Positions 14,504 to 63,769 of a DNA stretch of 64,000 nucleotides are shown here, in pieces. The DNA lies in assembly GCF_005047595.1 (NCBI RefSeq), contig NZ_SUPL01000005.1, positions 186,001 to 250,000 on the forward strand, in the 5' to 3' direction. A program made the position numbers and the translations under genes. The number at the start of each line of letters is the position of its first letter. Position 1 is the first letter of the stretch. Below the pieces are notes generated by a model. It searched no databases and was not told where the DNA came from. It saw only the letters and a list, made by a program, of their open reading frames with translations. The DNA is from Pontimicrobium aquaticum. Lineage in GTDB: Bacteria; Bacteroidota; Bacteroidia; Flavobacteriales; Flavobacteriaceae.

Positions 14504-15490
14504 TTATTTTTTTATATGGTTGGTAAAATCTTTATGCTCTCTTTTATAAAGTTTTTCTTTAGATAAACTTTTAAAATATTCGAACGTTCTTTTCATGCCT
14601 TCACTTCTTCCAATTTGAGGCTCCCAGTCTAAGACCTTTTTTGCCAAGCTAATATCTGGTTGTCGCTGTAACGGGTCGTCTATAGGCAATTCCTTAAAAA
14701 CGATCTTCTGATTTGTTCCTGTAAGTTTAATAATTTCTTTAGTAAACTCCAAGATAGTAATTTCATCAGGATTTCCAATATTAACGGGGTACACATAATC
14801 ACTAAACAGTAACCTATAAATCCCTTCAACTTGGTCGTCAACATAACAAAACGATCGCGTTTGCAAGCCATCCCCAAAAACGGTTAAATCCTCACCACGT
14901 AATGCTTGTCCCATAAAAGCAGGAATCACGCGTCCGTCGTTTAATCGCATCCTTGGACCATAGGTGTTAAAAATTCGTACAATTCTGGTTTCCAATCCAT
15001 GAAATCTATGGTAAGCCATGGTAATGGATTCTTGAAAACGTTTGGCTTCATCATACACGCCTCTTGGACCTATGGTGCTAACATTTCCGTAATACTCTTC
15101 AGATTGCGGATGTACTAATGGGTCACCATATACCTCAGATGTTGAAGCAATTAAAATCCGCGCTTGTTTGGCTTTAGCCAACCCTAATAAATTATGAGTT
15201 CCTAAAGATCCTACTTTAAGTGTTTGAATGGGTATTTTTAAGTAATCAATAGGGCTTGCTGGAGAGGCAAAATGCAAGATGTAATCCAAGTCGCCTTCTA
15301 TAGCAATAAACTCGGTAACATCATGTTCAATAAACTTAAAATTTGGGTGCTTAGAAAGATGGGAAATATTAGAAACGTCACCCGTAATAAAGTTATCCAT
15401 GCCAATGACGAAAAACCCTTCATTGACAAATCGGTCGCACAAATGCGATCCTAAAAATCCTGCAGCTCCTGTTATTAAAACTCTTTTCAA
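14504..15490 (-). CDS. UDP-glucuronate decarboxylase (UDP-xylose synthase)
   Basis: The 328-residue SDR enzyme has the NAD-binding motif [10 protein letters not shown], the catalytic triad including YDEAK, and the UXS-type segments [12 protein letters not shown] and [19 protein letters not shown]. It should turn UDP-glucuronate into UDP-xylose; the UDP-glucose dehydrogenase that makes its substrate is encoded just upstream. The start codon is TTG, fixed by the conserved [12 protein letters not shown]-terminus, with no alternative ATG nearby. The repeats of a small four-helix-bundle cassette begin directly at this start, which may explain the weak start codon. Confidence 0.93.
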
Positions 15491-15557
15491 TGGTTAAATG
15501 GTTGAATGACGGAATGACATAATGATGGAATGATGGAATGCCGAAAGCATTAAGGGT
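15491..15557. repeat. Short tandem repeats flanking the first four-helix-bundle gene (left)
   Basis: Units related to GGTTGAATGA and GGAATGA are repeated in tandem, starting at the UXS start codon. On the other side of the small gene (15951-15998), related units (ATTGAATGA, ATAATGA) occur in inverted orientation. The pair brackets the gene like an imperfect inverted repeat. Confidence 0.6.
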
Positions 15558-15950
15558 CTATTTGTTACCATACGCTGAGCTTTTTGCTTTAGATACTATT
15601 TTTATTATCTCATTTGCTTCTGCTAAAAGTCTTTCAAATTCATTTGTTTGACTGGACAAAGCCGTGTCTTTTATGACCTCTAACCAAAATTCTGATTCAT
15701 CAGCCTCTTCTACGACAATGCATATTTTACTAAAAAATTCTCTTTTAGATCTTGCTCTACATGCCGCACGATAATTTGCGCCAGTTGATGTAGCCGATTT
15801 AACCAATTGATACGTGATAACTGATGATGCCTTGTTAGGTTTTAATGAATCACAAAAACATATAATATCCACAGAAAACTTCTTGGTTCTTTGTTTCATG
15901 CTCTCAACAAACATTTCTCTTTCTGTCATTTGATTATTTACATCACTCAT
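15558..15950 (-). CDS. Four-helix-bundle protein (23S rRNA intervening-sequence protein family)
   Basis: The 130-residue all-helical protein has the family core GANYRAACRARSKREFFSKI followed by EEADESEFWLEVI. I recognise this as the four-helix-bundle family that includes proteins encoded in 23S rRNA intervening sequences and the Avd protein of diversity-generating retroelements. Its function here is unknown. No reverse transcriptase is nearby. The gene is inserted between ugd and the UDP-glucuronate decarboxylase gene and is flanked by inverted short tandem repeats. A second, divergent member is at 35634-35993 in the same locus. Confidence 0.85.
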   Translation of the reverse strand: MSDVNNQMTEREMFVESMKQRTKKFSVDIICFCDSLKPNKASSVITYQLVKSATSTGANYRAACRARSKREFFSKICIVVEEADESEFWLEVIKDTALSSQTNEFERLLAEANEIIKIVSKAKSSAYGNK

Positions 15951-15998
15951 TAACTCACTATATCATTGGTCATTATATCATTCAATCATTATCTAGCA
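15951..15998. repeat. Short repeats flanking the first four-helix-bundle gene (right)
   Basis: On the minus strand this segment contains ATTGAATGATATAATGA and further ATGA units, which resemble the plus-strand units at 15491-15557. It fills the gap up to the ugd stop codon. Confidence 0.55.
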
Positions 15999-17309
15999 TT
16001 ATTTGGTCGTCTTTCGCCCTATCGAGTAATACGTAAATCCTTCGTTTTGCATATCTTCTACTTCAAATAAATTTCTTCCATCGAAGATTACAGGTGCCTT
16101 TAAAAGCGTTTTTAACTTGTTGAAATCCGGGGTTCTAAAAATGCTCCATTCGGTACATATGATCAAGGCATCTGCGTTATTAGCTGCGTCGTATTTGTTT
16201 AATGCATAGGTTAGCTGCTCACCAAACTTACGCTTTACATTTGGCATGGCTTCAGGGTCGAACACCTGTATGTTAGCCCCTTTTTGTAATAGGTCTTCAA
16301 TAATGTATAATGCTGGTGCCTCTCTAATATCGTCGGTTTCTGGCTTAAATGCCAATCCCCAAACAGCAAACGTTTCACCCTTAATATCGCCATTAAAATG
16401 TGATTCGATTCTTGGAATGAGTATCTTTTTTTGAACATCGTTTACCTTTATCACTGCATTTAAAATATCAAAGTGATGCCCAACGTCTATACCAGATTTA
16501 TGTAATGCCTTTACGTCTTTAGGGAAACAAGAACCTCCATAACCAATACCTGGAAATAAGAAACGTTTGCCAATACGCGAATCGGTTCCCATACCCATAC
16601 GTACTTTATCGACATTGGCACCAACTTTTTCGCAAAAATTGGCAATCTCGTTCATAAACGTAATCTTGGTCGCTAAAAATGAATTGGCTGCATACTTCGT
16701 GAGTTCAGCACTGCGCTCATCCATCACGATGATTGGATTCCCCGAACGTACAAAGGGTTTGTACAGCTTTTTCATCAAGTTAATTGCCTTCTCCGATTCT
16801 GACCCAATTACGATACGTTCTGGCTTTAAAAAATCATCCACAGCAAAGCCTTCTCTTAAAAATTCTGGATTTGACACTACATCAAAATCAACATTGGTTT
16901 CACTAGAAATGACCTCAGTAACTTTATCGGCTGTTCCTACAGGCACTGTGCTCTTGTCAACAATCACTTTATACGATTGTATTTTTTGTCCAATCTCTTT
17001 AGCGACACCTAATACGTATGATAGATCGGCCGAACCGTCTTCATCTTCAGGTGTTGGTAATGCTAAAAAGATAATATCACCATGCTCCAACCCTTCCTCT
17101 AAACTCGTAGAAAACGTTAAGCGGCCTGCTTTAATATTTCTTTCAAACAGCACATCCAAATGAGGCTCGTAAATAGGCACCTCTCCCTGTTGCATTTGCT
17201 GTACTTTGTCTTCATTGATGTCTATACAAAGTACTTCGTTGCCTGTTTCTGCCAAACAGGTTCCTGTCACTAAGCCTACATATCCTGTGCCAATAACTGC
17301 TATTTTCAT
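15999..17309 (-). CDS. ugd: UDP-glucose 6-dehydrogenase
   Basis: The 436-residue enzyme oxidises UDP-glucose to UDP-glucuronate with NAD. It has the N-terminal dinucleotide-binding motif GTGYVGLVTG, the central substrate region and the catalytic Cys in GIGYGGSCFPKD. The C-terminal domain carries WGLAFKPETDDIREAPA. It should feed the UDP-glucuronate decarboxylase encoded next. ATG 17309 (MKIAVIGTGYVG) is preferred; a TTG 21 bases upstream is in frame but belongs to a -7 box. The promoter suggests internal transcription of this part of the locus. Confidence 0.95.
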   Translation of the reverse strand: MKIAVIGTGYVGLVTGTCLAETGNEVLCIDINEDKVQQMQQGEVPIYEPHLDVLFERNIKAGRLTFSTSLEEGLEHGDIIFLALPTPEDEDGSADLSYVLGVAKEIGQKIQSYKVIVDKSTVPVGTADKVTEVISSETNVDFDVVSNPEFLREGFAVDDFLKPERIVIGSESEKAINLMKKLYKPFVRSGNPIIVMDERSAELTKYAANSFLATKITFMNEIANFCEKVGANVDKVRMGMGTDSRIGKRFLFPGIGYGGSCFPKDVKALHKSGIDVGHHFDILNAVIKVNDVQKKILIPRIESHFNGDIKGETFAVWGLAFKPETDDIREAPALYIIEDLLQKGANIQVFDPEAMPNVKRKFGEQLTYALNKYDAANNADALIICTEWSIFRTPDFNKLKTLLKAPVIFDGRNLFEVEDMQNEGFTYYSIGRKTTK

Positions 17310-17327
17310 TCTCAATTTTTTACATGA

Positions 17328-17335
17328 CAAAAATA
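17328..17335 (-). promoter_or_regulatory. -7 promoter box TATTTTTG of ugd
   Basis: The minus strand reads TATTTTTG, 18 bases before the ugd ATG, in the 84-base gap after the GT26 gene. It suggests an internal promoter in the polysaccharide locus. Confidence 0.55.
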
Positions 17336-35553: not shown

Positions 35554-35633
35554 AATTATGGTTATACAGTTAAAAGATAAATAGTTATATGGTTAAAGAG
35601 TTATACGGTTAAAGGGTTATAAAGTTATATGGT
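35554..35633. repeat. Tandem repeats with inverted-repeat end, left of second four-helix-bundle gene
   Basis: Units close to GTTATAYGGTTAAAGR occur four to five times. The outermost 14 bases GGTTATACAGTTAA (35560-35573) are repeated exactly in inverse orientation at 36007-36020, on the far side of the small gene. The gene and its repeats form a compact cassette between rfbB and rfbA. Confidence 0.72.
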
Positions 35634-35993
35634 TTAATGTAAGCTTTTTATGAGGTTAGATAACATTTTTCGTATGAAATAGATACGTTGGGTAATTGTG
35701 TCTGCTTCATTCAAATATTTTAACCTGTAGGCTATTTCCAATTGTGTTTCAACTTCTGAGAGAGAGCCTAAAGCAATATACAAAAACCGGATAAATTCTT
35801 TGTTTCCTCTGCGTCCTGCTCCTTCGGCTATATTGGAAGGAATTGAAACGGATGCTCTTCTTAACTGCGAGGTAAGACCATAGACTTCTTTTGATGGGAA
35901 ACTTTCAGAAATTTCATAAATCACCACCACAAAATTCATAGCTTCTTGCCATACTTTTAAATCTTTATGTGATGTTATTTCATTCATTAACAA
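35634..35993 (-). CDS. Four-helix-bundle protein (23S rRNA intervening-sequence protein family), second
   Basis: The 119-residue all-helical protein shows the common family core: LKVWQEAMNFVVVIYEIS, FPSKEVYGLTSQLRRASVSIPSNIAEGAGR and KEFIRFLYIALGSLSEVETQLEIAYRL. It belongs to the same broad family as the 15558-15950 protein but to a different subgroup. Function is unknown. It interrupts the rfb gene order (rfbB, then this, then rfbA) and is bracketed by a 14-bp exact inverted repeat embedded in tandem repeats, so it looks like a mobile or recently inserted cassette. Confidence 0.9.
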   Translation of the reverse strand: MLMNEITSHKDLKVWQEAMNFVVVIYEISESFPSKEVYGLTSQLRRASVSIPSNIAEGAGRRGNKEFIRFLYIALGSLSEVETQLEIAYRLKYLNEADTITQRIYFIRKMLSNLIKSLH

Positions 35994-36006
35994 AAAATAT
36001 AACTTC

Positions 36007-36045
36007 TTAACTGTATAACCTCCTAACCTTGAAACCGTTTAACCG
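36007..36045. repeat. Inverted-repeat end, right of second four-helix-bundle gene
   Basis: TTAACTGTATAACC (36007-36020) is the exact reverse complement of 35560-35573. Further related units (minus strand GACGGTTAAACGGTTTC) run into the last codons and stop of rfbB, so the repeat array supplies the rfbB stop codon. Confidence 0.7.
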
Positions 36046-63698: not shown

Positions 63699-63769
63699 GG
63701 CGTCTTGGCCGAGTGGCTAGGCAGAGGTCTGCAAAACCTTGTACAGCGGTTCGAATCCGCTAGACGCCT
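63699..63769 (+). tRNA. tRNA-Cys (anticodon GCA)
   Basis: The 71-base sequence folds as a cloverleaf: acceptor stem GGCGTCT/AGACGCC with discriminator T, a D-arm with GAGTGGCTAGGC, anticodon loop CTGCAAA with anticodon GCA, and the TTCGAATC T-loop. The U discriminator is expected for cysteine. No CCA is encoded. A hairpin terminator follows. Confidence 0.97.

Follow-up and report, generated by a model that had tools for sequence, protein, structure and literature searches.

A repeat-bracketed gene between ugd and UXS

We analyzed a stretch of 64,000 nucleotides (nt) of the Pontimicrobium aquaticum genome (assembly GCF_005047595.1, contig NZ_SUPL01000005.1, positions 186,001 to 250,000; hereafter the window), in which a small gene encoding a four-helix-bundle protein, framed on its two sides by short inverted tandem repeats, lies between ugd and a UDP-glucuronate decarboxylase (UXS)-type gene. 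The order on the minus strand is ugd, 5′ arm, four-helix-bundle open reading frame (ORF), 3′ arm and UXS, and we call the two arms with their ORF the cassette. The features concerned, in window positions, are as follows.

15999..17330, minus strand: ugd, UDP-glucose 6-dehydrogenase type; upstream neighbor, same direction as the cassette ORF
15951..15998, minus strand: 5′ arm, tandem AATGNNNN units that span the interval between the ugd stop and the ORF, their first AATG sharing bases with the TAA of ugd
15558..15950, minus strand: ORF for the four-helix-bundle protein of the S23p/IVP family, called at 130 amino acids; PF05635, TIGR02436, PDB 2RLD
15489..15545, minus strand: 3′ arm, CATTNNNN octamers in tandem that form the inverted complement of the other arm; the last unit overlaps the UXS TTG
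14504..15490, minus strand: UXS-type gene, downstream neighbor, TTG start
15485..16005, minus strand: the cassette as RNA, the arms pairing as an interrupted terminal stem that closes the ORF (minimum free energy (MFE) and centroid folds)
35554..36038, minus strand: second cassette of the window, in the rmlB/rmlA gap (gene names assigned by eye); ORF 35634-35993, arms of GTTATAC/GTTAAAG-type octamers

The name UXS was taken over from a preliminary description of this DNA, and the family hits of 14504..15490 are to short-chain dehydrogenase/reductase (SDR)/epimerase families. The cassette protein belongs to PF05635 (46.9 bits against a cut-off of 33.8) and also matches TIGR02436, the 23S rRNA intervening-sequence protein S23p (78.3 bits, cut-off 24); this match, with the inverted arrays described below, bears out the preliminary description, which had placed a repeat-bracketed four-helix-bundle gene between ugd and UXS. 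The only sequence relative in the PDB, in a search to E = 0.1, is the five-chain entry 2RLD (E = 1e-12). In nine of the ten best relatives listed, the alignment begins at residue 7 or 8, and five of them have a length of 123 amino acids; the true start of the protein is therefore probably the ATG at 15929, giving 123 amino acids, rather than position 15950. The protein is under purifying selection, with a pN/pS of about 0.2 against its nearest relatives (for example, pN 0.14 and pS 0.61 against locus L221), and searches of Pfam and NCBIfam found no nuclease or transposase domain in it. An anti-phage defense function was considered and rejected, with no PADLOC family matched by either cassette protein of the window. 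Two unannotated phage records from human feces (MT835815.1, 4690-4944, and MT835590.1, 14544-14744) encode relatives that are 39-40% identical to the cassette protein over part of its length.

Tandem Repeats Finder reported two arrays of period 8, at 15489-15508 and 15504-15540, and one of period 15, at 15947-15992, and three inverted pairs, 81-86% complementary, join 15497-15545 to 15966-15992, in agreement with the earlier claim that the flanking tandem units are inverted on the two sides. Read on the gene strand, the 5′ arm is AATGATTG AATGATAT AATGACC AATGATAT AGTGAGTT AATGAGTG, and the 3′ arm is CATTCCAT CATTCCAT CATTATGT CATTCCGT CATTCAAC CATTTAAC CATT followed by G, this last CATT overlapping the TTG, so that the array does reach the first codon of UXS, as had been described. 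The 3′ arm is periodic: at lag 8 it scores 19 matches out of 24, above the 16 that mark the 95% level of its shuffles. By itself, the 5′ arm does not reach significance in this test (15 matches, lag 10). In an RNA duplex comparison, the fraction of 3′ arms from different sites that pair with the 5′ arm as well as its own does is 0.000. Four AATG units in exact octamer phase occur at this cassette only in the assembly (3.31 Mb, 22 contigs), where the backward pattern and a same-letter control each gave 0 matches and no second array with an AATG unit was found. The genome carries four PF05635-type genes, one of them interrupted and two inside the window, and each of the four, judged by eye, has short inverted tandem units on its two sides, with a unit of its own.

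The cassette is private among the junctions read and the UXS start codon is older

It had further been proposed that the insertion replaced the start codon of UXS, and this is ruled out by cassette-free relatives. In the three closest congeners (G001, G002 and G003), ugd directly abuts UXS, no cassette is present and UXS begins with TTG at the equal residue; across the 18 junctions that have a true upstream ugd (75-90% identical) and no cassette, UXS starts with TTG in 5, with GTG in 1 (congener G004) and with ATG in 12. Because cassette-free junctions, including those of G001-G003, start UXS with TTG, this codon is on the sequence comparison older than the cassette, whose last CATT unit merely reaches it.

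The ugd-UXS copy is private to its own genome among the junctions read: a cassette is present at 1 of 19 ugd-UXS junctions, and among 30 UXS loci only this one has a PF05635-like ORF within 1.5 kb of UXS. The rmlB-rmlA cassette is found in two of the six genomes of the genus, the genomes compared being one per species.

Orientation, periodicity and arm pairing across the family

Our survey covered the family Flavobacteriaceae and the phylum Bacteroidota, as judged from named relatives and annotation. At one genome per genus, 89 of 120 members of the family contain PF05635, as do 157 of 198 genomes from a phylum-wide draw. Out of 119 family loci, which are best-scoring matches and not a random sample, we used 110, leaving out six that are truncated by contig ends, two marked as broken, and L021, which shares its flanks with L019 (the two lie near opposite ends of a single contig) and was taken as an assembly overlap. 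The preliminary description had taken the cassette for an insertion and pointed to two such cassettes in one locus; the insertion-like character is supported, and these 110 same-family copies, at about 46 sites, agree that such cassettes recur.

The cassette ORF is codirectional with both neighbors in 107 of 110 loci and with the downstream neighbor in all 110; as a baseline, simple ORF calls in the window of this one genome, its two cassettes included, give 52 triplets, 31 of them codirectional. Tandem periodicity exceeds 95% of dinucleotide shuffles in 138 of 220 arms and 99% of them in 98, and stretches 400 nt farther out exceed the 95% level in 1 of 220. The lags of the periodic arms are 7 (77 arms), 14 (29), 8 (24) and 15 (5), with three others, and the periodicity is present in both arms of 50 loci and in at least one arm of 88. 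When 30 loci were drawn from the whole phylum, 25 of them from other families, 31 of their 60 arms were periodic by the threshold from the 110-locus test.

Comparison of RNA duplex energies demonstrated that a median fraction of 0.038 of different-site 3′ arms pair with a 5′ arm as well as its own does, a fraction that is below 0.05 in 59 loci and below 0.01 in 34. The median duplex energy is -31.5 kcal/mol for a locus's own arms, -23.5 kcal/mol for arms from the same site in other genomes (902 pairs) and -20.5 kcal/mol for arms from different sites; that own pairs beat the arms of other genomes from the matching site is a sign that the two arms change together. A plain-alignment version of the own-versus-cross comparison is weak, own being row-best in 21 of 110 loci and above the 99% cross level in 20, with same-site relatives included.

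A universal heptamer consensus was also tried and discarded: on the 5′ side it scored 2.44 against a column-permuted mean of 2.33 and maximum of 2.53, which is no gain, and on the 3′ side 2.63 against a permuted maximum of 2.56, which is hardly any (25 and 24 sites). By eye, the arms of L199 look direct and not inverted (GCCAGTTGCCAGAAGCCAG / AGCCAGCAGCCAGTAGCC), and this locus is a possible exception.

The repeat core is matched to the protein subfamily

A scan of named genome contigs for relatives of the cassette protein, run with an alignment headed by that protein, gave 80 loci among the matches listed. Their metagenome-assembled genomes (MAGs) are labeled, again among the matches listed, as Flavobacteriaceae, Bacteroidales, Salinivirgaceae, Lutibacter, Cytophagales, Chlorobiota, Calditrichota and others, labels that may reflect contaminated bins. 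By eye, the neighboring genes vary from locus to locus, with one site shared by L225 and L226.

Every one of the 18 relatives in this set that are at least 55% identical to the cassette protein carries 8-17 AATG/CATT cores in its arms, compared with 12 in the ugd-UXS copy. These 18 are 14 counted first plus four with interrupted or short ORFs (L232, L233, L234 and L252), which have 12, 12, 10 and 8 cores in 200 nt. The 109 other family loci have a mean of 0.74 cores and at most 4, and none carries the arms. Among the 62 remoter relatives listed (33-52% identical), the AATG/CATT arms are present in one, L279, with 9 cores. In 61 of these 62 (all but L236), 81 of 122 arms are nonetheless periodic by the threshold of the 110-locus test, with lag 7 in 55, so that arms in array form are widespread and the AATG/CATT core, carried by only 1 of 62, is specific. 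The repeat core is, as far as these sequences allow us to judge, one that travels with the protein subfamily, mostly across unrelated sites.

The 110 family loci point the same way in two comparisons: pairs from different sites with similar proteins have an arm similarity of 25.2 versus 20.9 (264 pairs; reached in 0 of 2000 permutations), and the correlation of cross-duplex energy with protein similarity, 0.155, lies above the permuted range. Within the clade of the cassette protein (14 loci, L223 left out), the own arm has a mean rank of 4.9 versus 7.5 expected. It could be argued that the arrays are ordinary slippage in AT-rich gaps and their inversion a coincidence, as the units are imperfect and variable and other hairpin repeats occupy these gaps too; against this, periodicity, own-arm pairing and protein-matched cores are all above their controls, and the AATG array's occurrence only once in its genome also tells against slippage, so that we give this explanation almost no credence.

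Site states, inheritance and possible transfer

Two gaps around a thiolase gene (sites s0 and s1), examined in 30 genera, illustrate how patchy the cassettes are. Of these 60 gaps, 20 are empty (<40 nt), 14 exceed 300 nt and are ORF-sized as judged by length, 24 are middle-sized and 2 are ambiguous. Ten of the 24 middle-sized gaps are, by eye, ORF-less hairpins of 82-102 nt (typically about 83 nt) with period-7 arms and fold z-scores from -1.65 to -5.49. In the genome that carries the ugd-UXS cassette, the s0 hairpin and the s1 cassette share their unit by eye.

Other hairpins were noted by eye in these operon gaps beside the thiolase gene, namely a CCCACCTAACCTCCCC-type family (L152 s1, L160 s0 and s1, L163 s0 and s1) and a third, GTCGAGTGCAGTCGAGACC-type family (L177 s1). 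At s0 loci such as L062, L071, L080, L155, L165 and L167, the upstream gene end has a palindromic extension, CGCAACTAR followed by TTGCG, where the array begins, and 8 of 10 empty s0 sites have AGAAACTAR instead of CGCAACTAR. We note only as an idea that the arms may have grown out of host target sequence, on account of the palindromic CGCAACTAG followed by TTGCG at several s0 sites.

Horizontal movement is suggested by one pair of genomes from different genera, G003 and G011, whose cassette ORFs at s1 are 96.9% identical, with the upstream gene at 82.8% and the downstream gene at 86.2%; the near-identical tract extends a few tens of nt into both flanks and, at the sequence level, resembles the product of homing or of a short gene conversion. 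At one site, two genomes of one genus (L019 and L024) have different units and distant proteins, as if one cassette had taken the place of another.

An explanation that dispenses with mobility would be that these are vertically inherited accessory operon genes with a regulatory job, e.g., in mRNA processing, whose gain and loss is mostly loss. Proteins do cluster by site across genera: on the protein tree, a single change, with starred support against the other grouped rows, suffices for each of s2, s3, s4, s7 and s8, s5 needs one, unstarred, s1 and s6 need two each and s0 needs four, in a tree that has few columns, in which ungrouped rows are uncounted and L075, from another site, falls inside s2. 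In addition, the protein is under purifying selection, and the median same-site identity of the ORF (71%) is like that of the flanks (73 and 76%). This explanation is set against the patchy presence of the cassettes, with 20 of 60 s0/s1 gaps empty, the private copy at ugd-UXS, the occurrence of one subfamily in MAGs from several orders, at many sites, and the mosaic tract shared by G003 and G011, and we judge it quite improbable.

Relationship to known elements

The cassettes are like the intervening sequences (IVSs) of the 23S rRNA genes of Coxiella and Leptospira in having the same protein family, a sense ORF, inverted stem-forming arms and tandem heptamers near the ORF start, and unlike them in lying between protein genes, at many sites, with a unit that varies by lineage with the protein subfamily. 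As described in passages of one paper on Coxiella (PMC4990558), the 23S IVS there has its S23p ORF in sense, two or three GACAGAT heptamers before the ORF and an inverted stem, and is excised by RNase III; in the same passages, the authors think that S23p is not made there, an ORF is named in few IVSs only, hence ORF-less IVSs exist, and the solved Xanthomonas relative of S23p is a pentamer. The ugd-UXS cassette has complementary termini able to form a stem-loop, and an ORF that is S23p by its family match and in sense as judged from its codirectional neighbors. Location in a 16S or 23S rRNA gene is what it lacks: it sits in the ugd-UXS gap, and Rfam, at gathering score, matches the window only once, with a tRNA gene at 63699-63769. 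Because the cassette lies outside rRNA genes, we file it as a variant of the 23S IVS and not as a member. Four-helix-bundle genes between ordinary genes also appear for Flavobacterium columnare, in a table of phage elements, in passages of a second paper that mention no repeats for them (PMC5524665).

Cassettes on cyanobacterial plasmids extend the comparison. Among nine distinct ones, six have strong lag-7/lag-14 arrays on both sides (by the threshold from the 110-locus test, no shuffles), L219 has such an array on a single side, L215 has a one-sided array of lag 15 and L218 has none, with arm inversion judged by eye. These heptamer arrays are like the short tandemly repeated repetitive (STRR) sequences, the heptanucleotide repeats of heterocystous cyanobacteria, which were reportedly described in rnpB by Vioque in 1997. 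By analogy, STRRs may be the arms of PF05635 cassettes or derived from them. One plasmid copy, L212 (Anabaena sp. 90 plasmid pANA02, 1507-1875), is a PF05635 cassette with long heptamer arms that lies between cas6 and cas4/cas1d, in a type I-D CRISPR operon.

For the gene-less hairpins, the comparison class is that of miniature inverted-repeat transposable elements (MITEs) and repetitive extragenic palindromic (REP) elements with a helper protein. Like these, a gene-less short hairpin and a gene-bearing copy with like arms occur, by eye, in one genome (L150 s0, L003); unlike them, the cassette arms are tandem arrays of lineage-specific units, and there is no transposase. The protein of the rmlB/rmlA cassette also matches Avd of diversity-generating retroelements as a distant relative (PHROG 3206, E = 1e-4), unlike that of the ugd-UXS cassette, which has no Avd match, and a reading by eye of the translated ORFs at 9-22 kb, made without profile searches of the neighbors, brought out no reverse transcriptase or template/variable repeats.

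These likenesses also raise the possibility of an element that acts as DNA, its arms being terminal inverted repeats or a foldable single strand recognized by the cassette protein or by a transposase in trans, with the RNA stem a by-product and the orientation a matter of needing a promoter. The match of core to protein subfamily across different sites would fit this, as would the fairly uniform, MITE-like size of the ORF-less hairpins; so would the cyanobacterial plasmids, where 3 of 10 copies are antisense to both neighbors and integrase/transposase genes adjoin four of the ten. We nevertheless think a DNA-level element unlikely, given that 107 of 110 copies are codirectional in the window's own family, that the protein has no nuclease or transposase domain by Pfam and NCBIfam, that no target duplication was seen by eye at ugd-UXS and that the related 23S IVS is, in the passages cited, cut out as RNA (PMC4990558).

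A probable IVS-like cassette between operon genes

We consider it fairly probable that the ugd-UXS copy represents an IVS-like mobile cassette of the mRNA gap between operon genes, with arms that probably form an RNase III-type stem. Its mobility, binding and processing are what we infer from comparing sequences. The arms, co-transcribed with the operon, would pair into a stem, as they do in both the MFE and the centroid prediction for the cassette RNA, where they join into an interrupted terminal stem; RNase III or a similar enzyme would cut the cassette out of the mRNA at this stem, and the neighbors ugd and UXS would keep working after excision. Because the repeat core matches the protein subfamily, the cassette protein may read the core of its own arms; it would bind there and help the element to spread or persist, in the role that a transposase has for its terminal repeats. 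Transfer into a cognate gap could be horizontal, with short flanks co-converted.

Several observations weigh against this interpretation. The fold of the whole cassette has a z-score of only -1.8, with 6 of 100 shuffles folding as well, and the far-flank control, 400 nt away, has a median duplex energy of -29.4 kcal/mol, near the -31.5 of own arms, so that absolute energy is no evidence and only the own-versus-other comparison counts. Even in that comparison, the own-arm fraction is at or above 5% in 51 of 110 loci and reaches 63% in the interrupted copy L003, and neither arm is periodic in 22 loci. The match of core and protein is likewise incomplete: L236, at 52% identity, has 0 cores, L279, at 37%, has them, the own-arm rank of 4.9 within the clade is better than expected but not perfect, and the overall rank correlation of protein with arm over the 110 loci (rho 0.056 and 0.029) lies inside the permuted range. 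As for movement, most same-site pairs look vertically inherited on sequence identity, with the ORF more than 5 points above both flanks in only 4 of 424 pairs, that of G003 and G011 among them, and above both at all in 93; no transposition was seen among the 110 loci, where the 25 best different-site matches reach about 80% DNA identity; and inspection of ugd-UXS by eye shows no clear target-site duplication, in a comparison with congeners that differ at the ugd end and by about 9% in their UXS proteins. Finally, with 3 of 10 cyanobacterial plasmid copies antisense to both neighbors, co-transcription is not universal.

More tentatively, and with rather less confidence than would make it our working view, these cassettes could be a widespread class of minimal mobile elements in which a four-helix-bundle protein and its own inverted tandem arms of 7-8-nt units are a matched recognition pair, homing into operon gaps and spawning hairpins of about 83 nt, and which would unite the 23S rRNA IVSs, the cyanobacterial STRRs and the unexplained four-helix-bundle genes of Bacteroidota.

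Significance

We found no description of such cassettes outside rRNA in the open-licence literature, among the matches listed, and in the passages cited, S23p proteins are without known function and IVSs are treated as elements of rRNA genes (PMC4990558). The more than one hundred similar cassettes surveyed here suggest an under-described type of mobile element that slips between operon genes. If such elements are common in the mRNA of this phylum, and if their protein is matched to the flanking repeats, the function of S23p becomes directly testable; many short tandem arrays between genes would then be explained, and mRNA cut sites within operons would have a new source in these cassettes.
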